DNA from: Chloroflexota bacterium
GTDB taxonomy: Bacteria > Chloroflexota > Limnocylindria > Limnocylindrales > CSP1-4
Assembly (NCBI GenBank): GCA_003141245.1
Contig: PLLE01000020.1
Location: 110,091-152,968, forward strand
DNA length: 42,878 nucleotides
Reading direction: 5' to 3'
Part shown: positions 18,875-33,526 of the stretch, in pieces
Layout: every line of letters starts with the position of its first letter
How positions within the stretch are numbered: the first letter of the stretch is position 1
Translations under genes and position numbers: made by a program
Notes under the pieces: model-generated
Told to the model about the DNA's origin: nothing
What the model saw: the letters and a program-made list of their open reading frames with translations, nothing else
Databases searched by the model: none

Positions 18875-20278
18875 GTGAGCTCGTTCCTTCCATCGTCTAC
18901 GGGTGACCGGCGACCCAGGGTCGGGCCGTTGTCCATCCCGCTGACCTGGGCGCTGCTCGCGGTTTCGATCGCTTTGCTTCTCGGGCAAGCGCTCTTTGGG
19001 TTCGCCCAGGGCCGGAACGGACCCGGCGATCTGGTCCTGGCGACAGCGACGGCTCTGCTCGTGAGTTCGGCGGTCCTGAACGCGCGGGCGTCGGGCATCC
19101 TGGTGGAACGGCGCCACTCCGAGGCGGAGAGCTTCAGCCGGCTCCTGCAGGCGCTCTCGCGTTCCGTCTCGCCGACCGCAGTGATCGAGGCCATCGTTCA
19201 CGAGCTGGGGGCCGCCACCGGCGCGGACCACGTGGCGGTGGTGCAGATGCGGCCCGGCGGCACCGTCCTGGACGTGACCTTCGTCTCGATGCTTCCCGGA
19301 AGCCAGACCTCCAACACGGTGATTCCGATCCAGCAACTCGAGCCGGGGACGACGCGCAGGCTGCTGGCCGCCCCGCAACGCTACGGCGGCGGACCCCTTA
19401 CGATCCACGGGTCACTGCGCGGCGAGGAGAACGGGCGAGTGGGCGCGCCGACGGTCTGGCACTCCAAGGGCGACCACGACGGCCATACCCCGCGGCGGGG
19501 TTCGTGGCGTCGCGAGCGCCCTCCGGTGATCGACGAACAGGCCCGGGAGAACGAGGGGAATGCCCGCAACGTCGCCAACCAGATCGCCTACAGGTTGCGC
19601 GACGCCTACGGCCTGCGCAACACCCTGGCGGCGCCGCTGGAGGAGGGCGAGTCCATCGTCGGGGCGATCGTGCTGTCGCGCCGTACCGGCGAGCCATGGA
19701 CGGAATCGGCGGTTCGACTCCTGAATGGCGCAGTCGGCGAGGTTTCCGCGGCGCTGGTGCGTGTGTATTCGCATCAGGCCGCCGAGACGGAGGCGCGCAC
19801 CGACCAGCTCACTCAGCTGCCGAACCGGCGCTATTTCGACGAGTACTGCACCCTTCTGGCCAGCCGGCGTCGAGCCACCGATCGGGTCGCCATCCTGGGC
19901 GTGGACGTTGATCACTTCAAGCGCGTAAACGACATGTACGGCCACCAGATCGGGGACGAGGTGCTGCGCGCGATCGGCAACGGGATCCAGCTGTCCGTTC
20001 GAGACGAAGACCTCCCGGCCCGCTCCGGCGGCGACGAGTTCATCGTCCTGCTTCGGAACCCCGCTCCTGGCGTGGCGCTGGAAATCGGCGAACGCATCCG
20101 CCAGACGGCGCGCGAACTCGATCTCGTGGATGTCGGCGTGACGGATCGAGTGACCGTCTCCGTGGGCGTGGCGTCGGAGCTCGAGGCAGGCGAGCCGATA
20201 TCCGAGATCGTGGCACGTGCCGACCGGGCCCTGTACGCGGCCAAGCGCGCCGGCCAGGACCGCGTCGCGGAGGTCTGA
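18875..20278 (+). CDS. Membrane-bound GAF-GGDEF diguanylate cyclase
   Basis: It would make cyclic di-GMP from two GTP. Numbering from GTG 18875 (467 aa): two membrane helices at about 21-41 and 50-68, then a GAF-like sensor domain (about 80-295) interrupted by a polar insertion, then a GGDEF domain from about 305. The active-site motif is intact (SGGDEF, GGDEF at 385-389). An RxxD inhibitory I-site (RDED, 376-379) lies the standard five residues before it, so product inhibition is expected. The start is uncertain: the frame is open to GTG 18761, but residues before 18875 look non-structural. No EAL or HD-GYP partner is in the window. Confidence 0.87.
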   Translation: MSSFLPSSTGDRRPRVGPLSIPLTWALLAVSIALLLGQALFGFAQGRNGPGDLVLATATALLVSSAVLNARASGILVERRHSEAESFSRLLQALSRSVSPTAVIEAIVHELGAATGADHVAVVQMRPGGTVLDVTFVSMLPGSQTSNTVIPIQQLEPGTTRRLLAAPQRYGGGPLTIHGSLRGEENGRVGAPTVWHSKGDHDGHTPRRGSWRRERPPVIDEQARENEGNARNVANQIAYRLRDAYGLRNTLAAPLEEGESIVGAIVLSRRTGEPWTESAVRLLNGAVGEVSAALVRVYSHQAAETEARTDQLTQLPNRRYFDEYCTLLASRRRATDRVAILGVDVDHFKRVNDMYGHQIGDEVLRAIGNGIQLSVRDEDLPARSGGDEFIVLLRNPAPGVALEIGERIRQTARELDLVDVGVTDRVTVSVGVASELEAGEPISEIVARADRALYAAKRAGQDRVAEV

Positions 20279-20309
20279 CCCGGCGACATCGGATCAGGCG
20301 GGCGCGGGC

Positions 20310-20315
20310 TACCAT
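20310..20315 (+). promoter_or_regulatory. -10 element (TACCAT), leaderless start of polX
   Basis: TACCAT ends 6 nt before ATG 20322, placing the expected transcript start on the start codon. There is no Shine-Dalgarno sequence. Confidence 0.5.
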
Positions 20316-20321
20316 TCGGTC

Positions 20322-22208
20322 ATGGAGCAGCCGTCGCCGCCCGTAGAGCCGCCCGTAGAGCCGCCCGCCGGCGAGTCGTCGCCGGCCCTGCCCTCGAACG
20401 GCGACCTAGCGCGTATCTTCCACGAGATCGGCGACATGCTCGAGGTCAAGGGCGAGCTCGTCTTCAAGACCGTGGCCTATCACAGAGCCGCCGACGCGAT
20501 CGCGCATTCCCCGGTAGAGGTTGCGCGCGCCTACCTGGACGGTCGTCCGCCGCGCATAGCCGGCATCGGTGAGGCGATCGCGAAGAAGATCGAGGAGCTG
20601 GCCCGCACCGGCCAGCTGGCCTTCTACGAGCGGCTACGCGAGGAGGTGCCGCCGAGCCTGGTGGCCCTGCTGGAGATCCCCGGCGTTGGGCCCCGGACGG
20701 TCAAGCAGTTCCACGAGGAGCTGGGCATCGAGACCCTGGAAGACCTCCGCCGGGCCGCCGAAGCGGGCACTCTGCGTGAGCTCAAGGGGATCTCCGAGAA
20801 GACCGAGCAGCAGGTCCTGGCCGGGATCGCGGCGCTGGAGACCCGCCAGGAGCGGATGCGTCTCGGACACGCGGAGACGCTCGTCGAGACGTTGCTGGCC
20901 GAGCTTTCGGACGTGCCGGGCCTGCGGTCGATCCAGCCGGCCGGCTCGTATCGGCGCCGGCGCGAGACGATCGGCGACCTGGATCTGCTGGCCGAGACGG
21001 ACCGACCGACGGAGCTTGTCGAGCGGTTCACCGCGCTGGGATCGGTCGAGTCGGTGCTGGCGAAGGGGCCGCACAAGGCTGCCGTCCGACTGCTGCGCGG
21101 GCCGCAGGTCGACCTCATGATCATGCCGCCGGGCGAGGCGGGCACATATCTGATCCACTTCACCGGCTCGAAGGAGCACAACGTGCGACTGCGGGGGATG
21201 GCCCGCGATCGCGGCTGGAGTCTCTCGGAGAAGGGCTATCTTCGGCTAGGGGGCGACGGCGAGCCCGCCGTGGAGGAGTCGGGCGAGGCGGCCGAGCTTC
21301 GCAGCTTCCCGACAGAAGAGGAGGCGTACGGCTTCCTGGGCCTGCCGTTCATCGAGCCCGAGCTGCGCGAGGACCGCGGCGAGATCGAGGCGGCGCTGGC
21401 TGGGACGCTGCCTGCGCTCGTGGCGCGCGCCGACCTGCGCGGCGATTGTCACTGCCACTCCGACTGGTCGGACGGGGTGCACACGATCGAGCAGATGGCC
21501 GAGGCCGCCCGGCAGCGCGGCCAGGCATACCTCGTCCTGACCGATCACACGGTCAGCCTGGCGATCGCACGAGGGCTCGACGTCGAGCGAGTGGAGCGGC
21601 AAAGGCGGATCGTGGCGATACTGAACGAGCGGTTCGAGCGCGAGGAGGCCGAAGGTACGGCTCCGCCAGAGACCTCGGCCGAAGGCTTCCGGCTGCTGCA
21701 CGGCTGCGAGCTGGAGGTCCGCGCCGACGCGACGTTGGACTACCCCGACGAGCTGCTGGCGCGCTACGACCTCGTCGTCGCCTCCGTCCACGTCTCGCGC
21801 CGGCAGACGCGCGAGCAGCTGACCGCCCGAACTCTCGCCGCGATCCGGAATCCGCATGTGGACGTCATCGCGCATCCAGCCGGCCGCTACATCGGCACCC
21901 GCGACGACCTCGATCTCGACTGGGGCGCGATATACCGGGAGGCTGCTCGGACAGGTACCGCCCTGGAGTTGAACGGCTCGGACGAACGGCTGGACCTCTC
22001 GGACGTTCGCGCTCGCCGGGCCGCCGAGTTCGGCTGCGTCTTTACGATCGACTCGGACGCCCACCGAGCCGAGGAGCTCGACAATCTCCGCTGGGGCACG
22101 GCCATGGCCCGCCGTGCCTGGCTCGGTCCCGAGCGAGTGATGAACACTCGATCGCGCGCCGAGCTGCTGGAATGGGTCGCCGGCAAGCCGGAGCGTGTCC
22201 GGGCGTAG
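20322..22208 (+). CDS. polX: PolX-type DNA polymerase/3'-5' exonuclease with PHP domain
   Basis: A bacterial family-X DNA polymerase acting in gap filling and repair, 628 aa. After a Pro-rich tail with a PPVE repeat, an HhH-containing 8-kDa-type domain (about 25-195: RIAGIGEAIAKKIEEL, IPGVGPRTVKQF) precedes the palm. All three catalytic aspartates are visible: D219 and D221 in GDLDLL and D264 in VDLMIM, followed by HFTGSKEHNVRLR. The C-terminal PHP domain (about 370-610) has H377 and H379 in DCHCHSDWSDG, LTDHT, and later HPAGRYIG and DSDAHR, metal ligands of the Mn-dependent exonuclease. Both activities therefore look intact. ATG 20322 is chosen because the open frame upstream overlaps the previous gene and a -10 element sits just before it. 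Confidence 0.93.
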   Translation: MEQPSPPVEPPVEPPAGESSPALPSNGDLARIFHEIGDMLEVKGELVFKTVAYHRAADAIAHSPVEVARAYLDGRPPRIAGIGEAIAKKIEELARTGQLAFYERLREEVPPSLVALLEIPGVGPRTVKQFHEELGIETLEDLRRAAEAGTLRELKGISEKTEQQVLAGIAALETRQERMRLGHAETLVETLLAELSDVPGLRSIQPAGSYRRRRETIGDLDLLAETDRPTELVERFTALGSVESVLAKGPHKAAVRLLRGPQVDLMIMPPGEAGTYLIHFTGSKEHNVRLRGMARDRGWSLSEKGYLRLGGDGEPAVEESGEAAELRSFPTEEEAYGFLGLPFIEPELREDRGEIEAALAGTLPALVARADLRGDCHCHSDWSDGVHTIEQMAEAARQRGQAYLVLTDHTVSLAIARGLDVERVERQRRIVAILNERFEREEAEGTAPPETSAEGFRLLHGCELEVRADATLDYPDELLARYDLVVASVHVSRRQTREQLTARTLAAIRNPHVDVIAHPAGRYIGTRDDLDLDWGAIYREAARTGTALELNGSDERLDLSDVRARRAAEFGCVFTIDSDAHRAEELDNLRWGTAMARRAWLGPERVMNTRSRAELLEWVAGKPERVRA

Positions 22209-22241
22209 CCGGGCGGCGCCCCGTAAGTTGCTCCGGTTGCG

Positions 22242-22247
22242 TACCAT
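22242..22247 (+). promoter_or_regulatory. -10 element (TACCAT), leaderless start
   Basis: The same hexamer as at polX, again exactly 6 nt before the ATG (22254). No Shine-Dalgarno sequence is present. Confidence 0.5.
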
Positions 22248-22253
22248 GCCGGA

Positions 22254-23033
22254 ATGCAGGATCGAAATGGAGCCCGCGAACTCGGGCTGATCGTGGCCAC
22301 GCTGGCGGTGCTCGGCCGTTTCGTGGCGGATATGCCGCTCTGGGTAGCGGCCACGCTGGCCGTGGTTGTAGCCGCGGCCGGAACCGCCGGTCTCCTGGGC
22401 GAGTTGCGGCCGTGGCGCTGGCCGCTCGACAGGGTCGTGCTCCCCGGACTGGCCGCGTTTGCCGCCATGGGGACCGCCCGCATGGTCGACCCGGTGCCCT
22501 GGCTCGCCTTCGCGTTCGTGGGCTCGTGGCTGGTGGTGGCCTGGGTCGTAGGCCTCGAGATCGCCGCGGGCGAGGTCGATGGCGTGCACGCTCGGTCCAC
22601 TTCCGCCCGCCTTGGCGCATTCGGTCTCGCATTCCTGGGCTTTGCCGCGATCGGCGGGCTCGTGCCGGCGGGACTCGCCGGCGACGGGCAGCCGCTTACG
22701 GTCGCCGCGTTCATGGCCACGGTTGCCCTGGACGTCGCGATCGGCGGCCTGGCGGGGTATCGGATCGCGGCCCTGCGGCCGCACACCCCGGGCGAGGCGG
22801 TCGTCACCTTCTACATGTATTCCATGGTTCTCGCCCCGGCTGGGGTTCTGGTGCGAGTCCTGGCATTGCCCAGACTCTTCGGGCCGGCCGTGCTTGCGCT
22901 GGCTACATACCTGGTCACTTCGCTGCGCGAATCCGAAGAGTCCCTCCCCTTCAACGTGCGTCTGCTCGAGGAGACGGCCGCGCTGGCGGCAGCCGGAGCG
23001 CTGGTCATCGTCGTGGGCCTGCTGGTGAAGTAG
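22254..23033 (+). CDS. Polytopic membrane protein of unknown function
   Basis: A 259-aa protein that is almost entirely hydrophobic, with about eight or nine helices and short loops. I recognise no family motif. The only polar stretches are ELRPWRWPLDR near residue 55, EVDGVHARSTSARLG near 105-120 and TSLRESEESLPFNVRLLEE near 225-240. The start is ATG 22254, directly after a -10 element. It follows polX by 45 bp but probably has its own promoter. A transporter or lipid-domain protein is possible. Nothing in the sequence decides this. Confidence 0.75.
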   Translation: MQDRNGARELGLIVATLAVLGRFVADMPLWVAATLAVVVAAAGTAGLLGELRPWRWPLDRVVLPGLAAFAAMGTARMVDPVPWLAFAFVGSWLVVAWVVGLEIAAGEVDGVHARSTSARLGAFGLAFLGFAAIGGLVPAGLAGDGQPLTVAAFMATVALDVAIGGLAGYRIAALRPHTPGEAVVTFYMYSMVLAPAGVLVRVLALPRLFGPAVLALATYLVTSLRESEESLPFNVRLLEETAALAAAGALVIVVGLLVK

Positions 23034-23128
23034 GGGAGGGCTGAGCCTCGGGGCGGCCCTGGAACCCTCGACCACCTCTTCCGGGCCCTCGTCGTGGCGT
23101 CGGACCCGACCTGAACGACGAGTTCGCG

Positions 23129-23157
23129 TTGACAGGGTGGCCGGCGGATGCTAGAAA
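23129..23157 (+). promoter_or_regulatory. Sigma-70 promoter with extended -10 before the TPR gene
   Basis: TTGACA (23129-23134), a 17-bp spacer and TAGAAA (23152-23157) preceded by TGC form a near-consensus promoter with extended -10. Transcription would start near 23164, leaving a leader of about 118 nt before the proposed TTG start at 23282. The 248-bp gap holds no other gene. Confidence 0.6.
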
Positions 23158-23281
23158 GCATGGTCCGGACGGGGCTCACCCGTCAGAATCTGCGTGCCTT
23201 CCGCGAGTCGGCGATATCCGCCGTCTCGCCGCACCACCGCCGTGGCTCGGCCCGGCGCAGTTGACGAAAGGGACCTCATCC

Positions 23282-24133
23282 TTGGCCTTCCCCGAGATCG
23301 AAAAGGGCACCGGCGGTAACGCAGTTCGGATCAAGCGCCAGCTGTCGGAGCTGGCGATAGCCCACGCAGCGGACGGGCGCTGGGCGGAGGCCGCGGAGAC
23401 CAACCGCAAGATCATCGAGATGGGCCCCGACGCCGAGGCCGAGAATCGCCTGGCCAAGGCCCTCTGGGAACTCGGGGAGTTGGGAGAGGCGCGTGAGCAT
23501 TACCAGATCGCCCTGGCCCTCGACCCCACGAACCGCATCGCAGAACGCAACATCGAGCGTCTGCGCGTACTGATGAGCGAGGCCGGCGAAAAGACCGTGA
23601 CAGCGGAGAAGGCCGGCAAAGCGCCCGTCGCGATCTTCGTCGAGGAGACCGGCAAGACCGGCTTCGCGATGCTCACGGACCTGGCCGCGCCGCGGACCCT
23701 CGCCCATGTCAATCCGGGCGACGCCGTGGAACTGGTTCCGGACGGGAACCGGCTCTACGCGCTGGCCAACGGAACGCGTATCGGGGTCGTCGAGCCGCGC
23801 GTCGCCGCCCGCCTCCTCAAGCTGCTCGCCGACGGCAACAAGTACTCGGCGGGCATCACCTCGCTCGGCGACCGCGACGTCCGGATCGTTATCCGCGAGA
23901 TCTTCCAGGACCCGCGCAACTACGGCAAGGTCAGCTTCCCCACCGCGGCCCGCTCGACGGACCTGCGCCCATACACCAAGGGCACGCTTCTGCGTGAGGA
24001 AGAGGCGATGGAAGAGGACCTCGAGGACGACGAGGAGGACGAAGGGATCGAGGACCTCGACCGCGTTCTGCCGACCCAGGTCACCGGCGACGAAGCCTTC
24101 GAAGAAGAGACCGACGAGCTCGAGGAGCCATAG
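23282..24133 (+). CDS. TPR protein with highly acidic C-terminus
   Basis: A 283-aa cytosolic protein. Residues about 15-90 form two TPR-like helical pairs (AHAADGRWAEAAETNRKII, LGEAREHYQIALALDPTN). About 115-215 is a small beta-rich module of unknown type (PVAIFVEETGKTGFAML, NGTRIGVVEP, ending DPRNYGKVSFP). The last 55 residues are mostly Glu and Asp (EEDLEDDEEDEGIEDLD). The frame is open to 23129, but that codon is part of the -35 box; TTG 23282 with AAGGGA upstream is the best start. TPRs imply protein binding and the acidic tail may bind basic partners. No specific function can be given. Confidence 0.75.
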   Translation: MAFPEIEKGTGGNAVRIKRQLSELAIAHAADGRWAEAAETNRKIIEMGPDAEAENRLAKALWELGELGEAREHYQIALALDPTNRIAERNIERLRVLMSEAGEKTVTAEKAGKAPVAIFVEETGKTGFAMLTDLAAPRTLAHVNPGDAVELVPDGNRLYALANGTRIGVVEPRVAARLLKLLADGNKYSAGITSLGDRDVRIVIREIFQDPRNYGKVSFPTAARSTDLRPYTKGTLLREEEAMEEDLEDDEEDEGIEDLDRVLPTQVTGDEAFEEETDELEEP

Positions 24134-24163
24134 GCCGGCGCGTCCGCGCGCTGCACCGCTGAC

Positions 24164-26497
24164 ATGACGAAGGCTCCAGCCCGAGCCGAAGGACTACTCC
24201 GTCCTGAGGCCTCGGCCTCGATGTCGGATTCCGCCCCGGGGCCGGCCACCGGCGAGTTGGACTCCCTCGAGTCGGCCGCCGCTTCGCCGCCCGCGGCACC
24301 TGAGTCGGCCGCCGCTTCGCCGCCCGCGGCACCTGAGTCGGCCGCCGCTTCGCCGCCCGCGGCACCTGAATCGGCTGCCGCTTCGCCGCCCGCGGCACCT
24401 GAGTCGGCTGCCGCTTCGCCGCCCGCGGCACCTGAGTCGGCTGCCGCGCCCCGATCGACGTCAGCCTACAGGCCGTTCCTCGACGGTCTTCGGGCGGTCG
24501 CGGTTCTGGGCGTCCTCGTCTACCACCTGAACCGCAGCTGGCTGCCGGGCGGGTTTCTCGGCGTCGACATTTTCTTCGTGCTGAGCGGCTATCTCATCAC
24601 GATGTTGTTGCTGACCGAGCATCGCGACACAGGGAGGATCCACCTCCCGACCTTCTGGGCCCGCCGAATCCGACGTCTCCTGCCGGCCCTGCTGGTGGTG
24701 CTCGTCGTCATGGTCGTCCTGATCGACATTGGCGGCGACCCGCTGGCTGTGGGCCAGGCCCGTGGCGACCTGCTGGCCACGCTCTTCTATGCCGCCAACT
24801 GGCACTTCATCACTGCGGGCCAGTCGTACTTCACCCAGTTCCTGGCCGTCTCACCGGACCGCCATACCTGGTCGCTCGCGATCGAGGAGCAGTTCTACCT
24901 GTTCTGGCCAATCGTCGTCGCCTTCATCCTGGCTCGCTTCCGCGAGCGGACCCTCGCGATCGTCGCCGCCACGGTGGCAGTCGCCTCGGCGCTGTGGATG
25001 GTGGCCATCTTCGATCCGAGCGATCCGTCACGGGCCTACTACGGCACCGACTCGCGTATCTTCCAGATTCTCATAGGGGCGCTGCTCGCGATCGCCCTGT
25101 CGGGCTCGCTGAGGGAGCGGGTGGCGATCTGGGGCCGCCGGCTTGCCCCCGTTGCCGTGCTCACGATCGCCGCCTCGTACTTGTGGCTGGCCGACGACAA
25201 CTCGATCTACTACCACGGTGGGGCGGTGGCCATCGCGGTTGCTGCGGCTGCGCTGATCGCCGGCCTGGAGGCGGGCAGTCCGATCGATCGGCTGCTCTCG
25301 GTGCGGCCTATGGTTCTCGTGGGTCTGGCCTCCTACGGCATGTACCTGTGGCACTTCCCGATCATCACCTTCACGAACCAGTGGGTCGGATCCACGACCA
25401 CACCGGCGATCGCGCTTCTTGCGGTGGCGTTGACGTTCGCGGCCACGGCGACCTCTTTCGTCGTCGTCGAGTCGCCCATCAGGCGGCGAGGCCTGCTCCT
25501 CGGCTACAAGCTCACGCCGGCCCGCCTGGCGCGGGTCGTGCCGCTCGCCTCCGGCGCGGTCGCGGTCGTGATCGTCGCGGCGACGGCGAACGGCGTCGTG
25601 GCGCCGAACTGGGACAACGCCAACAACTACCCAAACGGAATCGCCGTGTACACGCCCGCGCCGGTGGATTCGGGCGGCATGGCGAGCCAGACGCCGACCC
25701 CCAGCCAGGACGATCACCCCAGCGCAAGTGTCCCGGCGAGCCCGACTGCGGAGCCGATCGGCGGCCCGGGCTGGTCTGTGGGCGTGGTGGGCGACTCGGT
25801 CATGGCCTCGGCCGTGCCCGGTCTCCAGGTCGAGACGTCGCGGCGAGGCTGGCGCTTGATCGCCGCCGCAAGGCCCTCCTGCCCGGTCGGGTACGAGACG
25901 CTGTACGACACCGGCGGTAGCCCGTCGCCCGGCAATGGCCAGTGCGAGGTCGTCCGGACCCTCCACGACCAGCTCCTCGCCGCCAAACCCGACGTGGTCA
26001 TCTGGCACGACCTCCAGTCCGTGCTCGCCCGGAAGTCCCCGAACGGCACCCTCCTGAACCCCGGCTCGAGCGCATGGCAGGCGAGCCTGTACGCGGAGTG
26101 GACCCTGGTTCTGGATCGGTTTCTGGCCGATGGAGCCAGGGTGGTGGTCGTCCTTCCGCCGCTGCGCAGCGAGCAGGCTCGGGGCTGTCAGGGTGTGCCG
26201 AGTCAGGACCGCTGCCTCACGATCCAGCGTCAGGACACGATCATCCGGGGGGCGACCCGGGAATGGTTCGCAAGCCTGGGCGGACGAGCCGGGGTGTACC
26301 TGATCGAAGTCGACTCGCTGCTGTGCCCAAGCGGCTATCCCTGCCCCAGCCAGGTCGCCGGCATCGACGTGCGGCTCCCGGGCTACGATCAGACTCATTT
26401 CAGCGACGCCGGTTCCACGTGGTTCGCGCCGCGACTCCTCGATGAGGTCGTGGCCGCGCTGAAGGGGCCCGCGCCGGCCGCCACCGCCACGACCTAG
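24164..26497 (+). CDS. OafA-type acyltransferase-3/SGNH fusion
   Basis: A membrane O-acyltransferase (777 aa) that moves acyl groups from the cytoplasm to extracellular glycans. Residues about 36-96 are a low-complexity Ala/Pro/Ser repeat. About 105-455 is the acyltransferase-3 domain with ten or so helices, opening with RPFLDGLRAVAVLGVLVYH (H121 being the catalytic-type His) and GVDIFFVLSGYLIT, then HTWSLAIEEQFYLFWP. After a Pro/Ser linker, an extracellular SGNH domain carries GDSV (S545) and the D-x2-H pair D742/H745 in DQTHFSDAG. This matches OafA/OatA-like acetyltransferases. It starts 30 bp after the TPR gene, probably co-transcribed. The target polymer is likely the surface glycan made by the upstream clusters. 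Confidence 0.91.
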   Translation: MTKAPARAEGLLRPEASASMSDSAPGPATGELDSLESAAASPPAAPESAAASPPAAPESAAASPPAAPESAAASPPAAPESAAASPPAAPESAAAPRSTSAYRPFLDGLRAVAVLGVLVYHLNRSWLPGGFLGVDIFFVLSGYLITMLLLTEHRDTGRIHLPTFWARRIRRLLPALLVVLVVMVVLIDIGGDPLAVGQARGDLLATLFYAANWHFITAGQSYFTQFLAVSPDRHTWSLAIEEQFYLFWPIVVAFILARFRERTLAIVAATVAVASALWMVAIFDPSDPSRAYYGTDSRIFQILIGALLAIALSGSLRERVAIWGRRLAPVAVLTIAASYLWLADDNSIYYHGGAVAIAVAAAALIAGLEAGSPIDRLLSVRPMVLVGLASYGMYLWHFPIITFTNQWVGSTTTPAIALLAVALTFAATATSFVVVESPIRRRGLLLGYKLTPARLARVVPLASGAVAVVIVAATANGVVAPNWDNANNYPNGIAVYTPAPVDSGGMASQTPTPSQDDHPSASVPASPTAEPIGGPGWSVGVVGDSVMASAVPGLQVETSRRGWRLIAAARPSCPVGYETLYDTGGSPSPGNGQCEVVRTLHDQLLAAKPDVVIWHDLQSVLARKSPNGTLLNPGSSAWQASLYAEWTLVLDRFLADGARVVVVLPPLRSEQARGCQGVPSQDRCLTIQRQDTIIRGATREWFASLGGRAGVYLIEVDSLLCPSGYPCPSQVAGIDVRLPGYDQTHFSDAGSTWFAPRLLDEVVAALKGPAPAATATT
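24269..24451 (+). repeat. 33-bp in-frame tandem repeat, five copies plus a partial
   Basis: Five units of 33 bp (starts 24269, 24302, 24335, 24368, 24401) each encode ESAAASPPAAP, followed by a partial unit. Units 1-3 are almost identical at the DNA level and units 4-5 differ by a base or two, which indicates recent slippage or recombination. The repeat forms the cytoplasmic N-terminal linker of the acyltransferase. Confidence 0.9.
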
Positions 26498-26527
26498 CGG
26501 AGGGCCTTCTGCCGCATCCTCGCCGGT

Positions 26528-26543
26528 ACCCGCGAACGCGGGT
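26528..26543 (+). terminator. Hairpin after the acyltransferase gene
   Basis: ACCCGCG (26528-26534) and CGCGGGT (26537-26543) form a tight GC hairpin in the 62-bp gap. There is no T-run, and the -10 of the next gene starts 5 nt later, so terminator and promoter are packed together. Confidence 0.45.
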
Positions 26544-26547
26544 CTGT

Positions 26548-26553
26548 CACAAT
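26548..26553 (+). promoter_or_regulatory. -10-like element (CACAAT), leaderless start
   Basis: CACAAT ends exactly 6 nt before ATG 26560. It is weaker than TANNNT elements but has the same geometry, and no Shine-Dalgarno sequence is present. Confidence 0.4.
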
Positions 26554-26559
26554 TGGCCC

Positions 26560-29412
26560 ATGGTCGGGCGCGCCGTCACCACCCGCGCCGAACGGCGCAA
26601 CGAGGGCAGTTCATCGCTGCCGATCTTCGAGCGGCTGGCGCCCTCCGCTCCGATGGCCGACCTGGCCGCCGAGATCGAAGCCTGGACGAAGCCGGGCGAG
26701 GCTGTGCTCGATCTCAACGGCCGTGGCGGGTGGGTCGCCCGGGCGGCAATCGTCGGGCAGCGCCGCGCCGCGGACCTCGAGTCGCTGTCGCTGACGCGCC
26801 TGCTCGCGGAGGTCGTGCTCAGGCCGCCGGACGCGAGCCACATCGACGCGGCCGCTGAGGCGATCTCGCTGCGGCCCCTTGGCGAGGCCACCGTCCGCAA
26901 GACGATGGAAAGCCTCTTCGCCAGCACATGCGCGGCATGCGGCAGTCCGGTCGTCCTCGAATCGCTGGTCTGGGAGCCAGGCGACGCGCGCGGCCGCTCA
27001 CGATCGAAGGGACGCGCGACGCAGCCGCAGGCAGCCCCGCCGGAACGTGCCGCTCGCCGGGAGTATCGCTGCGATCGATGCGACTCGCAGCGGGGCGGCC
27101 CGGATGTGCACCACGCCGAGCCCGAACAGGGCGACCTTGCCCTGGCAGCCTTCGCGGATCTGCCGAGCGAGGTCCGCGAAGCCCTCCGGAGGCGTTTCCC
27201 GACGCCGCTTCCGGACGATCCGCTGCCGGATCAGCTGCTCGACCTTCACACCGCCCGCCAGCTGCTCGGCCTCAACGCGATCATCGAGGCGATCGAGCTC
27301 GAAACCAGGTCGACGCCGCTGACGGCCGCCCTGCGCATCGCTTTCCTGTACGCCGTCGAGTCGGCCGGCAGGCTCAATGTGTACCGCGGCAGGCCCCCGG
27401 CCGTGCGCATATCGAATGGATCGCTGCGGCTTCCGACACCCCACGCCTGGCGCGAGCGGAACCCCTGGCTCGCCTTCGAGGAAGGCCTGCGCGCGGTCCG
27501 AAGCCTTGTCGGGCGGCTGGAGTCCGACGAGAAGCGGTCCGTCGCGGCACGTTTCGCCTCGGACCTGGTGGAGCTCCAGGAGGGGATCTCGAACGTGATG
27601 ATCGCCGAGGCGACGCCCGGGTCCTTGAGGCGGATCGGTCTGGCCGGCGAACGCATCGCCCACTCCGGCACGCCGTCGCGAGTCCGGCTGGTACTGGGCC
27701 AGGCTCCGTTGCGATTGACCCGCGAGCGGCTGGCCGAGGCCTACCACGGAACTGCGTGGTGCCTGGGGGCGGGGGCGGTTTCGCTCCTGCCTTACGAGGC
27801 GCTGTTCCGGCCGGCCTCCCGGACCACCCGCCGAAACGCGGCCGATGAGCTTGCTCACTCGCTCGCCCGATCGCTGGCGATCGCCACCCCGGTTCTCGCC
27901 CTGAACGGCCGAGCCGTGGTGCTGCTGGACGACGCGGAACCCCGAACCCTGGTCGCGGCGGCTCTCGGAGGAGCGGCCGCCGGCTGCCGCCTCGTGGACG
28001 CCCGGCTGCACCGCAGCGACGACGAGAGTCCAGGCATGGCGGTCTTCGTGCCCTCGACGGGCGTTCTGGCGCCTGGGCCGCGGACGCGCGCAAATAGACC
28101 TCTTCCGCCGGTCGAAGGCGGTGCCGGCGACCCGGGCTCCATCCCCGGACAGGGCGTCTTCGCCGCTCCCGAGAAGCTGACCGAGGGGCCCTTCAAGCCT
28201 CAGGTTGCCGCCCAGGCGATCACCGACACCGCCACCGAGTTGCTCAAGGCTCGCGGTGAGCCGGCCTGCTTCGAGAACATGATCGGAGATCTGCTCGTCG
28301 GGCTGGACCGATCGGGCCAGCTTGCCCGACTGGCGCGGCAGCTGCGGCCGCTGCGCGCCGACCAGGGCTGGGATGCCTGGGTCGACGACACCGGCGAGTT
28401 CGGCGCCACGGAAACGTCGGCTGCCACCGGCACGCCGCCCCGGGCCACCGACACGCCGGCCCGGGCCACGGGCACGCCGTCCCGGGCCACGGACGAAGCG
28501 CCAGAGGATGAAGAGTCGCCCGAGCCGCCGGGCCCCGTGGACGATCTGCTGGCCCTGATCAGCGGCGAGTTGAACCGGACGACCAATCGCCGCGTCCGCC
28601 AGATCGAGCCTGGCCAATACTGGCTCGGCTCGGAGGAAGATCGTTCGGGCGCCGCCCAGCCCCTCGCCGACCGAGTGGAGTGGGCCATCTTCAGTCTGCT
28701 CTCGTCGTCGCGCCAGATGACCGAGGCCGCCGTCTTCGAGCGGACCATGAGCGTGTTCCGGGACCGCGACGCGCCAGACGCGACCCTGCTCCGGGCCTGC
28801 CTGGACAGCTACAGCGCCCCGGGCAGCACGCCCGAGGCGATAGTCACGGGCGATCAGCTGGAGCGGCGCTCCGCCGAGCACGACGCCATGATCGCGACCG
28901 TCGCCGAGGTCGGCCATCGTCTGGGGACGCGCGTCTGGATCGGCCGTCGCCAGCAGGTTCGGCGCGTTCGAGGCCGCCCCCTCTCGGACTGGCTCGAAAT
29001 GGAGGAGCGCGAGATCCATCCGACGATGATCGCCTGGGGTCCCGAGGCCGAGTTGGAGCGGGTCGACTGCGCCTGGTACGTTCGCCACAAGGCGACCTTC
29101 CTCTTCGAGGTCGAATGGACGGCCATGCTCGGCGATGCGGTCCTGGTCCGCCACAACCGCTTCCCGGCCGACGACAAGGTGGTCCGCTTCCTCGTCATCC
29201 CGCCCGAGCGAGCCGAGCTGGTGCGCCACAAGCTAGCCCGCTCGCCGCTGCTGCGCCGCGCCTTCGAGGAGCACAACTGGCACGTTCTCAAGTGGGACCA
29301 GCTCGCCGCCTTCGCCGCCCGCGAGGAGGTCTCCCTGGCAGAGATCGAGCCGTACCTCGGGCTTGACGCCGACGCGACTGCCGGGGAGCAACTCCCACTG
29401 TTCGAGGCCTGA
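26560..29412 (+). CDS. Degenerate DNA-methylase-like protein with C-terminal PD-(D/E)XK-like domain
   Basis: A 950-aa protein of no named family. Residues about 15-110 have the layout of class I DNA methyltransferases (WTKPGEAVLDLNGRGGW, then a second strand and an LRPPD loop). The SAM motif DPFxGxGT has become D51-L-N-G-R-G-G-W, and no N/D-P-P-Y motif is seen. C124/C127 and C171/C174 form a four-Cys zinc ribbon, as in some DNA methylases of the DUF1156 type. About 205-480 holds helical segments (RFPTPLPDDPLPDQLLDLHT, WRERNPWLAFEEGLR). A Thr/Pro/Ala linker near 620-655 joins a C-terminal domain whose D836 and E850-V-E852 (RVDCAWY, FLFEVEW) resemble a PD-(D/E)XK core with K replaced by E. It is monocistronic. 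A restriction-like or DNA-repair role is inference; methylase activity looks lost. Confidence 0.6.
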   Translation: MVGRAVTTRAERRNEGSSSLPIFERLAPSAPMADLAAEIEAWTKPGEAVLDLNGRGGWVARAAIVGQRRAADLESLSLTRLLAEVVLRPPDASHIDAAAEAISLRPLGEATVRKTMESLFASTCAACGSPVVLESLVWEPGDARGRSRSKGRATQPQAAPPERAARREYRCDRCDSQRGGPDVHHAEPEQGDLALAAFADLPSEVREALRRRFPTPLPDDPLPDQLLDLHTARQLLGLNAIIEAIELETRSTPLTAALRIAFLYAVESAGRLNVYRGRPPAVRISNGSLRLPTPHAWRERNPWLAFEEGLRAVRSLVGRLESDEKRSVAARFASDLVELQEGISNVMIAEATPGSLRRIGLAGERIAHSGTPSRVRLVLGQAPLRLTRERLAEAYHGTAWCLGAGAVSLLPYEALFRPASRTTRRNAADELAHSLARSLAIATPVLALNGRAVVLLDDAEPRTLVAAALGGAAAGCRLVDARLHRSDDESPGMAVFVPSTGVLAPGPRTRANRPLPPVEGGAGDPGSIPGQGVFAAPEKLTEGPFKPQVAAQAITDTATELLKARGEPACFENMIGDLLVGLDRSGQLARLARQLRPLRADQGWDAWVDDTGEFGATETSAATGTPPRATDTPARATGTPSRATDEAPEDEESPEPPGPVDDLLALISGELNRTTNRRVRQIEPGQYWLGSEEDRSGAAQPLADRVEWAIFSLLSSSRQMTEAAVFERTMSVFRDRDAPDATLLRACLDSYSAPGSTPEAIVTGDQLERRSAEHDAMIATVAEVGHRLGTRVWIGRRQQVRRVRGRPLSDWLEMEEREIHPTMIAWGPEAELERVDCAWYVRHKATFLFEVEWTAMLGDAVLVRHNRFPADDKVVRFLVIPPERAELVRHKLARSPLLRRAFEEHNWHVLKWDQLAAFAAREEVSLAEIEPYLGLDADATAGEQLPLFEA

Positions 29413-29445
29413 TCGGGTTGGGGGGCACGCCAGGGTCAATTGCTC

Positions 29446-29472
29446 GGCCGGGCGCCGCGTGCCACCCCGGCC
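29446..29472 (+). terminator. Weak hairpin before the DUF885 gene
   Basis: GGCCGGG (29446-29452) pairs with CCCGGCC (29466-29472) across a 13-nt loop in the 84-bp gap. There is no T-run. It may terminate the preceding gene. Confidence 0.3.
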
Positions 29473-29496
29473 GTCGCCAGGTAAGAGGAGGTTCCG

Positions 29497-31227
29497 GTGA
29501 GCGAGATCAGCCAGGCAGCCGACGCCGTCAACGCGCTGGCCGAACGGTTCTGGAACGGCCTCCTCGATCTCTCGCCGATCACCGCGACCGTGCTCGGATA
29601 CGAACAGGATCAGGATCGGCTCGACGACCCGGGTCCGGAGGGACGAGATCGGGCGCGGAGGCTATTCCGCGAGACGCTCCACGCGACCGATGCGATCGAG
29701 GCGCAGGCCGCCGCGGCCGCCGGCGCGGACTCCGGGTCGGACGGCGGCGCGGGCCTCCCGGTCGAGGAAGCGATCACGCTCGGCATCCTGACGATCGTCT
29801 GCCGGACCGAACTGGAGCAGCAGATTCAGCGCATCGATCGGCTCAGGGTCGTCGATCAGATGGATGGGCCGCAGACGATGCTGCCCCTGCTGGCTACCTT
29901 CCAGCGGACGGACACCCCGGAGCGCTTCGACCGCTTCCTCGCCCGTCTCGACGATTACCCGCGCTTTATGGCGGCCAACGCGGAGCTGACCCGCGAGGGC
30001 CTGGTGAGCGGGCTGACGGCGGCGCGGATCATCACGGAGCGGGTCATCGGCCAGCTGGAGCGGCTTCTTGCCGTGCCCGACGAGGAGTCGCCGATCGCCA
30101 TGGCGGTGACACCGCCCACCCCGTCCGACCGCGACAGGCTCGTGGCCGCGATCCGGAAGTCCGTCAGGCCGGCGGATCAGGCCTTCCTGGAGGCGCTCCA
30201 GGGCGCCTACCGCGAGGCTTCACGCGAGGAGCCGGGGTTGTGGTCGGCGCCCAACGGCGAGCAGCTCTACCGCACTCAGATACGGACCTTGACCTCCCTC
30301 GACCTGGACCCGGCCGATCTCCATCGTATCGGCCTGGAGGAGCTGGAGTCGATCGAGGCGGAGCGGCGCGAGATAAGCCGATCGCTCGGCTATGGCGACG
30401 ACACGAAGGCCGCTCGGGCCATCCTGCAGAGCGGGCCCGGAGCAATGCCCGAGTCGGCCGATGAGCTGCTGGACCACGCCCGCGGCCAGATAGAGCGGGC
30501 CCTGGCCCGGTCGCCCGAGTACTTCGGCCGACTGCCAAAGGCTCCGGTCGAGGTTCGCGCGGTTGAGCCGTTCAAGGAGGCCGACTCGCCTACGGCCTTC
30601 TACTTCCCGCCCGCGATCGATGGCAGCCGCCCCGGCGTCTACTACGTCAACACCTACGACCTGCCGAGTCGCAGCTATCTGAGCCTGGCCAGCACGAGCT
30701 TCCACGAGGCGGTTCCGGGCCACCACTTCCAGATGGCCCTGCAAACCGAGATGTCGAACCTGAGCGCCTTCCGCCGGATGGGCGCCCGAATGGCCGGCAT
30801 GGCCTACATCGAGGGCTGGGGGCTGTACTCGGAGCGCCTGGCGGACGAGATGGGGCTCTACCTCAACCCGGCCGAACGGTTCGGCATGCTCGACGGGCAG
30901 GCCCACCGCGCGGCCCGCTTGGTCGTCGATACCGGTATCCACGTCTTCCGCTGGCCGCAGGAGCGGTCGATAGCGCAACTGCTCGACGCGGGTCTGTCGG
31001 AGACCAACGCCCTGATCGAGACCGACCGTTACATCTCACTGCCGGCCCAGGCCCTGACCTACAAGGTCGGCCAGCGCGAGATCGAGCGGCTTCGAGCGGA
31101 GGCGGCGGCGCGCCTCGGCCCGGCCTTCGACCTGCGTGCATTCCACGACGCCGTGCTCGGTCACGGCACGCTGCCGCTGGCCACCCTCTCCCGCGAACTC
31201 CCCGGCTGGCTGGACGCGGGGCGCTAG
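29497..31227 (+). CDS. DUF885-family putative zinc metallopeptidase
   Basis: A 576-aa protein of the DUF885 family, which has an M2/M32-like all-helical peptidase fold. The family signature FHEAVPGHHFQ is present, with the H-E...H metal-binding arrangement, as is GWGLYSERLADEMGLY, which supplies the third ligand region. Upstream AFYFPPAIDGSRPGVYYVNT is another conserved block. There is no signal peptide, so a cytosolic peptidase or carboxypeptidase is expected. The substrate is unknown. The GTG start at 29497 has AGAGGAGG at good spacing, in contrast to the leaderless neighbours. The gene is convergent with the ankyrin gene, with 30 bp between. Confidence 0.88.
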   Translation: MSEISQAADAVNALAERFWNGLLDLSPITATVLGYEQDQDRLDDPGPEGRDRARRLFRETLHATDAIEAQAAAAAGADSGSDGGAGLPVEEAITLGILTIVCRTELEQQIQRIDRLRVVDQMDGPQTMLPLLATFQRTDTPERFDRFLARLDDYPRFMAANAELTREGLVSGLTAARIITERVIGQLERLLAVPDEESPIAMAVTPPTPSDRDRLVAAIRKSVRPADQAFLEALQGAYREASREEPGLWSAPNGEQLYRTQIRTLTSLDLDPADLHRIGLEELESIEAERREISRSLGYGDDTKAARAILQSGPGAMPESADELLDHARGQIERALARSPEYFGRLPKAPVEVRAVEPFKEADSPTAFYFPPAIDGSRPGVYYVNTYDLPSRSYLSLASTSFHEAVPGHHFQMALQTEMSNLSAFRRMGARMAGMAYIEGWGLYSERLADEMGLYLNPAERFGMLDGQAHRAARLVVDTGIHVFRWPQERSIAQLLDAGLSETNALIETDRYISLPAQALTYKVGQREIERLRAEAAARLGPAFDLRAFHDAVLGHGTLPLATLSRELPGWLDAGR

Positions 31228-31257
31228 GAGCGGTCCAGGGTCGGCACACACGGCCGA

Positions 31258-31926
31258 TCAATCACGCGTGGCCTCGCGCAGGAGGCCGGCCAGGGCTCCG
31301 TAACCGCCTTCCGTGGCTACGTCGATCGGCGTACGTCCGTCGTCGGCCGGACGCGTCGGGTCGGCCCCGCGGAGCAGCAGCAGGTCGACCGTAGCCTCGT
31401 CGCCGCCCTGCGCGGCCGAGTGGAGCGGCGTCCAGCCACCGTGCTGGACCACGTTGGCCGATGCCCCGAAGGCGAGCAACACGCCCGCCACGTCGCGGTG
31501 ACGCCTGGCGACGGCGCTGTGGAGGGGCGTGACGCGCGATTCGTTCCGGGCGACGGCGTTGGGATCGGCACCGCGCTCGAGCAGAAACCGCGCGACTTCG
31601 AGCCGGCCGAAGTACGCCGCCAGATGGAGTGGCGTGTAGCCGTCGTCGGTTCGATCCTCGACCTCGGCGCCTTCGCTCAGCTTGCGGCGGACGACCGCCA
31701 CGTCTCCGACGACGGCCGCCTCGAAGAGGCCCAGACCGTCCCGGGTCGCGGCGACCCTGGTTGCCAGGCGCTCCGCCAGGCGCGGATGGCCGCCGTAGGC
31801 GGCAGCCATCACCGGCGATCGCCCTGCCGGATCGCGCGTCGTCAGCAGGGCCGCGTCGCCTGCGATCGCGTCGTCGACCGCCGTCTGGTCGCCCAGTCGG
31901 ATCGCCTCGAAGAAATCAGCGGCCAT
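31258..31926 (-). CDS. Ankyrin-repeat protein
   Basis: A 222-aa protein consisting of ankyrin repeats. At least five are visible, for example DGYTPLHLAAYFGRLEVARF, ESRVTPLHSAVARRHRDVAG, GGWTPLHSAAQGGDEATVDL and DGRTPIDVATEGGYGALAG, plus a more degenerate one near residues 30-55. No catalytic domain is attached, so it acts by protein binding. Its ATG follows directly on the TGA of the aminotransferase (no spacer), which strongly suggests coupled translation and a functional link with that enzyme. Confidence 0.9.
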   Translation of the reverse strand: MAADFFEAIRLGDQTAVDDAIAGDAALLTTRDPAGRSPVMAAAYGGHPRLAERLATRVAATRDGLGLFEAAVVGDVAVVRRKLSEGAEVEDRTDDGYTPLHLAAYFGRLEVARFLLERGADPNAVARNESRVTPLHSAVARRHRDVAGVLLAFGASANVVQHGGWTPLHSAAQGGDEATVDLLLLRGADPTRPADDGRTPIDVATEGGYGALAGLLREATRD

Positions 31927-33294
31927 TCATTGCCCTCTGCCGGCGATTCCGCTAAGGGCCTCGATCAGCCGGTCGATCTCGGCGGCGGTGTTGTAGTGGA
32001 CGAACCCAACCCGGACCATGCCGCCCGATTCGGCCAGCCCGAGGGTTCTGATCAGCTCGTAGGCGTAGTAATCGCCGTCCCAGACGGCAATGCCGAGCCG
32101 GCCCAGCTCCGTGGCGATCTCTCGCGGTGAGCGGCCGCCAAGTGTGAAGGCAAACGTGGGAACTCGCTCGGCCATTCGGTTCGGATCGACGATCCCGCGC
32201 AGCCTCAGGCCCGGCACGGAACTCAACGCCGTCAGCGCGCGCCGGGCCAGGACTCGTTCCGTGGCGCCGACGACGGCCATGGCCGCTCGCAGACGCTCGC
32301 GCCGCGCTCCGCCGCTCTCCGCAGCCGCGCCACGCCCGTCACACACCCCAGCCGCGCCGAACGTCTCGCCCAGCCACTCCAGATACCCGAAGGTGGCCAG
32401 CAACCCCGCCAGTGACTCGCCCGCGAGAGTGCCCGTCTCCCATTTTCCGGGCGGCTCGTTGGCGGCCGGCCGGACCTTGTATGCGGCCAGGCCCTCGAGC
32501 AGCTCGCGTCGGCCGTACAGCATTCCGAGGTGTGGCCCGAAGAACTTGTACGGGGAGCAGACAAGGAAGTCGGTGCCGAGCGCCGCGACGTCGACGGCCA
32601 GGTGCGGCGCGGCATGGACCGCGTCCACGTACGTCAGCGCGCCGACGGAGTGGGCCATCTCCACGATCCGTCGGACGGGGTTGAGAGTGCCCACGGCGTT
32701 CGAGGCGAGGCCGACGGCCACCAGGCGCGTCCGCGGCCCAAGCGTCCGCTCCAGGCCCTCCAGATCGAGCGTGCAGTCATCCTGTCGGATCTCCACCCAT
32801 CGGACCCGGATGCCGCGCTCCTCCTCCAGAGCGAGCCACGGCGCTACGTTGGCGTCGTGGTCCAGGCGAGTCACGACGATCTCGTCGCCAGGCTTGAGCG
32901 TCCGTCCGAAGGCCCGGCTCATGGCGAATGTGAGGGTAGTCATGTTCTGCCCGAAGACGATCTCGGCCGGATCGGCCGCGCCGATGTAGTCGGCCGCCGC
33001 TGCGTGAACCTCGGACAGCATCGCGTCGCTCTCTTCGCTCGTGGCGAAGGCGCCCTCGTGGTTGGCGTTCGATCGCTCCAGGTAGGCCGTCATCGCCGCG
33101 ATCGTCGGGCGAGGCACCTGCGTGCCGCCCGGTCCGTCGAGGTAGACGAAGGGTCGGCCTGAGTGCTCGCGCGCCAGGGCCGGGAACTGCGACCTCACGA
33201 CTCCGAGGCCGGCCTCGCTCAAAGCCGTGGCGGCAGGGCCGTCGGCGAGCGCGGATGCAGGGTTACGCGGCAGGGCGAGGCGATCGAGGGGCAC
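31927..33294 (-). CDS. Class V aminotransferase, cysteine-desulfurase-like (VC1184 subfamily)
   Basis: A PLP enzyme of fold type I, 455 aa. It has YLDGPGGTQVPRPTIAAM at the start of the fold, TRLDHDANVAPW, YVDAVHAAPHLAVDV with the PLP-ring Asp, and SPYKFFGPHLG with the lysine that binds PLP. These match the cysteine-desulfurase-like subfamily typified by VC1184, whose true substrate is not settled; it differs from IscS/SufS, and no Fe-S scaffold gene is nearby. The start is taken as GTG 33292-33294 because GAGGAG (33306-33301) lies 6 nt upstream and TACTAT (33332-33327) forms a -10; the frame stays open to 33468 without support. The divergent IclR gene may control it. Confidence 0.87.
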   Translation of the reverse strand: MPLDRLALPRNPASALADGPAATALSEAGLGVVRSQFPALAREHSGRPFVYLDGPGGTQVPRPTIAAMTAYLERSNANHEGAFATSEESDAMLSEVHAAAADYIGAADPAEIVFGQNMTTLTFAMSRAFGRTLKPGDEIVVTRLDHDANVAPWLALEEERGIRVRWVEIRQDDCTLDLEGLERTLGPRTRLVAVGLASNAVGTLNPVRRIVEMAHSVGALTYVDAVHAAPHLAVDVAALGTDFLVCSPYKFFGPHLGMLYGRRELLEGLAAYKVRPAANEPPGKWETGTLAGESLAGLLATFGYLEWLGETFGAAGVCDGRGAAAESGGARRERLRAAMAVVGATERVLARRALTALSSVPGLRLRGIVDPNRMAERVPTFAFTLGGRSPREIATELGRLGIAVWDGDYYAYELIRTLGLAESGGMVRVGFVHYNTAAEIDRLIEALSGIAGRGQ

Positions 33295-33300
33295 GAAAAT

Positions 33301-33332
33301 CTCCTCGGTGAGGCGTGACGCCACCGATAGTA
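33301..33332 (-). promoter_or_regulatory. -10 element and Shine-Dalgarno of the aminotransferase
   Basis: On the minus strand TACTAT (33332-33327) is a -10 candidate. GAGGAG (33306-33301) lies 6 nt before GTG 33294 and decides the start. Confidence 0.5.
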
Positions 33333-33497
33333 CGACGCGCGGCCACGTGACGAAACCACCGCAGGCTGGCCAAGAGCCGCAGCCAGACCGCATCGTCCTG
33401 CGACTCCTTGAGACGCAGCCGCGACCGGGTATCGCCTTCGATCCTATGCGAAAGGGTAGCCATTGCAAGACGAACGGCAGGGGTCGGACCCTGCCCC

Positions 33498-33526
33498 TTG
33501 ACTAATCCCGAGTAACTATGTAAACA
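33498..33526 (+). promoter_or_regulatory. Probable promoter of the IclR gene in an AT-rich island
   Basis: TTGACT (33498-33503) and TAAACA (33521-33526) are 17 bp apart. The surrounding 33498-33540 is clearly AT-richer than the rest of the window. The divergent gap 33295-33713 (419 bp) contains this, the aminotransferase promoter and a hairpin at 33665-33681; I see no gene in it. Confidence 0.45.

Follow-up and report, generated by a model that had tools for sequence, protein, structure and literature searches.

A 42,878-nucleotide stretch of a Chloroflexota genome (contig PLLE01000020.1, positions 110,091 to 152,968 of the forward strand; hereafter 'the window') contains, at 26560..29412, a gene whose 950-residue product is a fusion protein apparently derived from restriction-modification, the gene having become a resident one. 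Its architecture, the decay of its methylase motifs, the homology of both of its halves and the signs of its vertical inheritance were all established by computation, and our finding that a methylase devoid of its motifs is joined to a domain related to restriction enzymes suggests that what was once a restriction enzyme has taken on a different role. The explanation which we favour, and to which we would give an even chance of being right, is that the protein descends from a restriction-modification enzyme by vertical inheritance on the chromosome, and that its dead methylase binds DNA and its tethered nuclease nicks or cuts it, probably together with a protein containing tetratricopeptide repeats (TPR). 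A chance open reading frame is excluded, since the protein was found in 97 of 101 genomes, including the window's own (protein search, E≤0.001); among genomes of good quality it is present in 42 of 44. The original prediction for this gene had described a methylase relative with a nuclease-like C-terminus; it holds in part, with corrections to the extent of the methylase domain, to a suggested kinship with DUF1156 and to the operon context, and the features it quoted (VLDLNGRGGW at residues 49-58, four cysteines, D836, E850 and E852) were all located where it had placed them. The parts of the gene are as follows:

26560..29412, +: whole gene, 950 amino acids
26581..26919, +: methyltransferase domain, first half (residues 8-120), with motif I decayed to VLDLNGRGGW (49-58)
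26920..27099, +: zinc ribbon (residues 121-180; C124, C127, C171, C174)
27112..27594, +: helical block between motif I and motif IV (residues 185-345), in the position of a target-recognition domain
27595..28065, +: methyltransferase domain, second half (residues 346-502), with RLVLGQAPLR at the motif IV site (376-385)
28198..28395, +: helical block with a conserved GEP at 566-568 (residues 547-612)
28396..28530, +: low-complexity Thr/Pro/Ala linker (residues 613-657), of low model confidence and probably disordered
28534..28851, +: winged-helix region (residues 659-764)
28852..29385, +: PD-(D/E)XK-like nuclease domain (residues 765-942)
29065-29067, 29107-29109 and 29113-29115, +: nuclease-site codons of D836, E850 and E852

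A methylase without its motifs, joined to a restriction-enzyme-related domain

The protein contains a Rossmann-like methyltransferase fold; the class I-type layout originally proposed is present, and extends over residues ~8-502 rather than 1-200. Consistent with the proposal that the enzyme is modification-dead, the catalytic motif IV ([DNS]PP[YFW]) was not found at its site in any of the 88 aligned rows, and the S-adenosylmethionine-binding motif I (DPxxGxG) occurs in 0/39 rows of the window's family (f1) and in 9 of the 88 rows in total, family f4 keeping it in 9/9 rows. The four cysteines of the zinc ribbon, likewise foreseen, are kept in 88/88 rows, and the residues invariant over all rows are D51, C124, C127, W138, C171, C174, R233, E299 and L887; R212, R233, E299 and W303 are conserved in the helical block at 185-345. 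Rough Nei-Gojobori ratios of nonsynonymous to synonymous substitution (dN/dS) for eight pairs amount to 0.11-0.24 in the motif I block, 0.16-0.30 in the nuclease block, and 0.38-1.87 in the predicted Thr/Pro/Ala linker, which is indeed present at ~613-657; all blocks other than the linker lie within 0.07-0.43. The low value of the motif I block indicates that the dead methylase half is still constrained. As a separate observation, families f10 and f40 (L104-L116, aligned to window residues 374-386) have P-R-x-N at the motif IV site in 13/13 rows, followed by LWxGWxWG, and keep it although their nuclease residues are lost.

The window protein matches no Pfam family (best E 0.24), no NCBIfam family (none at E≤1) and no PHROGs family, and sequence searches of the PDB gave just weak matches, in which the motif I region aligns with the RsrI methylase (E 3.7e-4 for profile A1; 0.35 for an f1-only profile). 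Its homologues do match PADLOC methyltransferase models. Collinearity with zinc-ribbon N6_N4_Mtase kin (PADLOC MTase_II, PglXI) begins at motif I, takes in the zinc ribbon, the helical block and motif IV, and lasts until the fold ends. However, these kin carry DPFCGSG or DPFAGSG and DPPY or DPPF, whereas the dead-methylase family lacks motif IV in 88/88 rows and motif I in 79/88, and has an extra C-terminal nuclease module. The more specific link to DUF1156 was not upheld: there was no Pfam DUF1156 match for the window protein (E≤1) or for the scanned relatives (E≤1, 0.1 or 0.01), a negative for which HMMER filters could mask very weak matches.

The nuclease-like C-terminus, in turn, proved to be homologous to restriction endonucleases (probability 97.2, E 3.1e-11, with a negative control run alongside), with the D/E/E residues in the predicted place. 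When seven restriction-endonuclease relatives are aligned with the domain, D836 and E850 fall on residues that are invariant among them, and the Lys of the D/E-x-K signature is replaced by Glu (E852), which is also invariant in those seven rows. Structural support is modest: a Foldseek search with the C-terminal model returned AF2093 at the top (E 0.019), and the list also includes FokI (E 0.14) and numerous methyltransferases that are unrelated, every match being weak.

Type IIG restriction-modification enzymes combine methylase and nuclease in one chain, as does the window protein; it differs from them in having lost its methylase motifs, so that an active methylase was not found beside the nuclease, and in the C-terminal position of the latter. 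BspD6I, a restriction endonuclease and nickase, is heterodimeric and site-specific, unlike the window protein, and we know of no dead methylase half in that system. Among the papers listed by literature searches, none could be tied to the dead-methylase family, and the residue names looked for do not occur in PMC8533099.

Inheritance within the class

The gene is apparently core and vertically inherited, as the original prediction had suggested in preferring a core over a mobile gene. Besides its presence in 97/101 genomes, a quick LG+G4 tree of 88 rows, whose output bears long-branch warnings, requires 12 changes for 13 family labels, which is the minimum, and recovers the six multi-row families with support of 95 (f1), 100 (f2, f3 and f4), 96 (f10) and 66 (f40). 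Among 72,556 plasmid and 50,697 phage records none matches the window protein (E≤1e-5), and a mobile origin was rejected accordingly; the patchy spread, mobile elements and varying locations expected of a mobile defence gene were not found. Synteny, when checked, showed a neighbourhood conserved throughout the class, with a TPR gene upstream on the same strand in 41/41 loci.

Of the four genomes without a match in the protein search, one (G061) was matched by an alignment profile. The other three belong to the same family and likewise lack a convincing match to the TPR gene (one of them has a best E of 4.8e-4, the other two have no match), suggesting either that these assemblies lack the locus or that it was lost in one piece. 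In a sample of the phylum, 112 of 301 genomes were matched (E≤0.001), many at the motif I region only, as ordinary methylases would be; among the matches listed in a scan of genome contigs, the five strongest (E 4e-65 to 8e-22) come from records with Chloroflexi or Anaerolineae in their titles.

Possible functions

In the explanation we favour, the dead methylase half, the zinc ribbon and the helical block would bind DNA; what they recognize could be a sequence, a structure, or a base that is modified or damaged. At the bound site the C-terminal domain tethered to them would nick or cut, probably in cooperation with the TPR protein encoded adjacently in related families. The role would then be genome maintenance or built-in restriction, and not mobile defence.

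The strongest competitor, which we regard as possible though clearly less probable, is that neither catalytic half is active in vivo and that the protein serves as a DNA- or RNA-binding scaffold or regulator, acting through its zinc ribbon, helical block, winged helix and TPR partner. The three residues of the nuclease site are invariant in the window's family (39/39 rows), D836 is kept in 73/74 rows outside f10, f40 and f72, and the nuclease-block dN/dS (0.16-0.30, 8 pairs) likewise speaks against a silent nuclease. Conservation of the site, a further check on the original prediction, is therefore complete in f1, whereas the E-x-E pair is altered or lost in several other families. Family f4 has D836 in 9/9 rows, E7 D2 at 850 and E8 D1 at 852; f7, f15, f33 and f23 together have D836 in 4/4, E3 Q1 at 850 and E in 4/4 at 852. 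Several observations weigh against a working nuclease. The residues invariant in all 88 rows are not those of the nuclease site; f3 has D836 in 10/10 rows with Q9 H1 at 850 and D5 E5 at 852; the site reads D, K, E in f5 and D, I, S in f66; f2 keeps D836 in 9/10 rows (one E) and E850 in 10/10, with E852 in 0/10; and all three residues, D836 included, are gone in 14/14 rows of f10, f40 and f72. In f2 as in these three families the protein nevertheless persists, and its persistence without a nuclease site in some branches keeps the scaffold explanation alive.

It is unlikely, in our view, that the protein is a chromosomally fixed anti-phage restriction factor, perhaps a modification-dependent one of type IV-like character whose dead methylase half reads the target. 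In favour of this reading, the nuclease domain is common to two EVE-domain proteins and to plasmid-borne genes, of which four out of five examined are annotated as type II restriction endonucleases. The EVE-domain proteins (L181:5308-6435 and L182:5308-6426) belong to the EVE-PD(D/E)XK group, whose members have been described as putative type IV enzymes (PMC7641849). L181 and L182, the two scanned with PADLOC PDLC03534, match this model, and they and the plasmid relatives L183-L187, all stand-alone endonucleases, share the D..E-x-E in register. However, they comprise 372-435 residues and have no methylase half, in contrast to the 950-residue core-gene fusion of the window. A tree that follows family labels, a class-wide conserved neighbourhood and the lack of plasmid or phage matches speak against this reading, and defence genes usually turn over faster. 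Finally, an RNA-directed role, in which tRNA or rRNA could be the ligand of the dead half because its nearest folds are tRNA methyltransferases, appears very improbable, considering that similarity of Rossmann cores cannot tell RNA from DNA enzymes, that five of six scanned proteins related in sequence and alike in architecture have N6_N4_Mtase as their first Pfam match (the sixth has UPF0020), and that homologues match DNA methyltransferases of PADLOC or PHROGs.

Returning to the proposed DNA-binding, nuclease-bearing descendant of a restriction-modification enzyme, one may speculate further, in a scenario that is rather doubtful in its full detail, that domestication of the enzyme within Chloroflexota produced a housekeeping nuclease for genome surveillance. 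The pseudo-methylase would serve as a base-flipping or structure-reading sensor positioning the tethered nuclease, with the TPR protein as adaptor, and the nuclease would later have decayed in some branches, leaving the pseudo-methylase as a binding protein. To our knowledge, pseudo-enzymes derived from DNA methylases have rarely been traced in bacteria. Here the decay is graded: a single family retains motif I, no row examined has motif IV, and the presence of the nuclease residues depends on the branch. The gene itself has nonetheless remained core, and syntenic across the class. Hence, the idea that a restriction enzyme passed to a resident function becomes testable by comparison of branches.

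Promoter and neighbouring genes

The following features lie around the gene:

23129..24133, +: TPR protein gene, upstream neighbour; the true start is probably nearer 23318, judging from homologue lengths
24164-26497: acyltransferase-3/SGNH gene, between the TPR and dead methylase genes
26542..26553, +: GTCTGTCACAAT, extended -10-like, 12 bp, 6 nt before the ATG
31258-31926, -: ankyrin-repeat protein gene, downstream

The element GTCTGTCACAAT is located 6-7 nt 5' of the homologous ATG in 18/18 same-genus rows tested (21 same-genus genomes were in the protein search), related forms occur in 5/21 rows from other genera (23/39 overall), and the window's genome holds one exact copy and one with a single mismatch. 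By its sequence and position it would be a dedicated extended -10 promoter giving a leaderless transcript, and the conserved placement supports the earlier description of the gene as leaderless. A generic sigma-70 scan of 20100-33500 gave no promoter-like site.

The description as monocistronic is a weak one for the ancestral state, given the TPR gene upstream in all 41 class-level loci, which were fetched with wide flanks. The gap between the two genes, as derived from first-start open reading frame calls, is at most 143 bp in 28 loci (9/11 f1, 9/9 f4, 10/10 f2). Larger gaps occur in 11 f3/f5 loci (0.8-2.3 kb), the window (2.4 kb) and L061 (3.8 kb). In three of six searched genomes of other families the two genes are on different contigs. 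In the TPR protein the middle domain is conserved and the tail strongly acidic; a resemblance to a HIRAN-like domain was discarded, there being no Pfam match, and TPR-region matches among the best 60 of 150 in a PDB profile search. PolX (window 20217-22208) lies upstream in 7/11 f1, 8/9 f4 and 0/21 other loci, some of which are cut short.

The window's genome further encodes a solitary, apparently intact second methylase (G000:C46:61951-63474; L174:5949-7478) with the motifs DPFSGRG and SPPY, which we take to be of the N4-methylcytosine (m4C) type. It is present in 54/61 f1 genomes (E≤1e-40) and in 0/40 f2-f5 genomes, nearly all of which have the dead protein, and was rejected as a general partner on these grounds. 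The acyltransferase-3/SGNH gene of the window encodes a repeated ESAAASPPAAP stretch near the N-terminus of its product.
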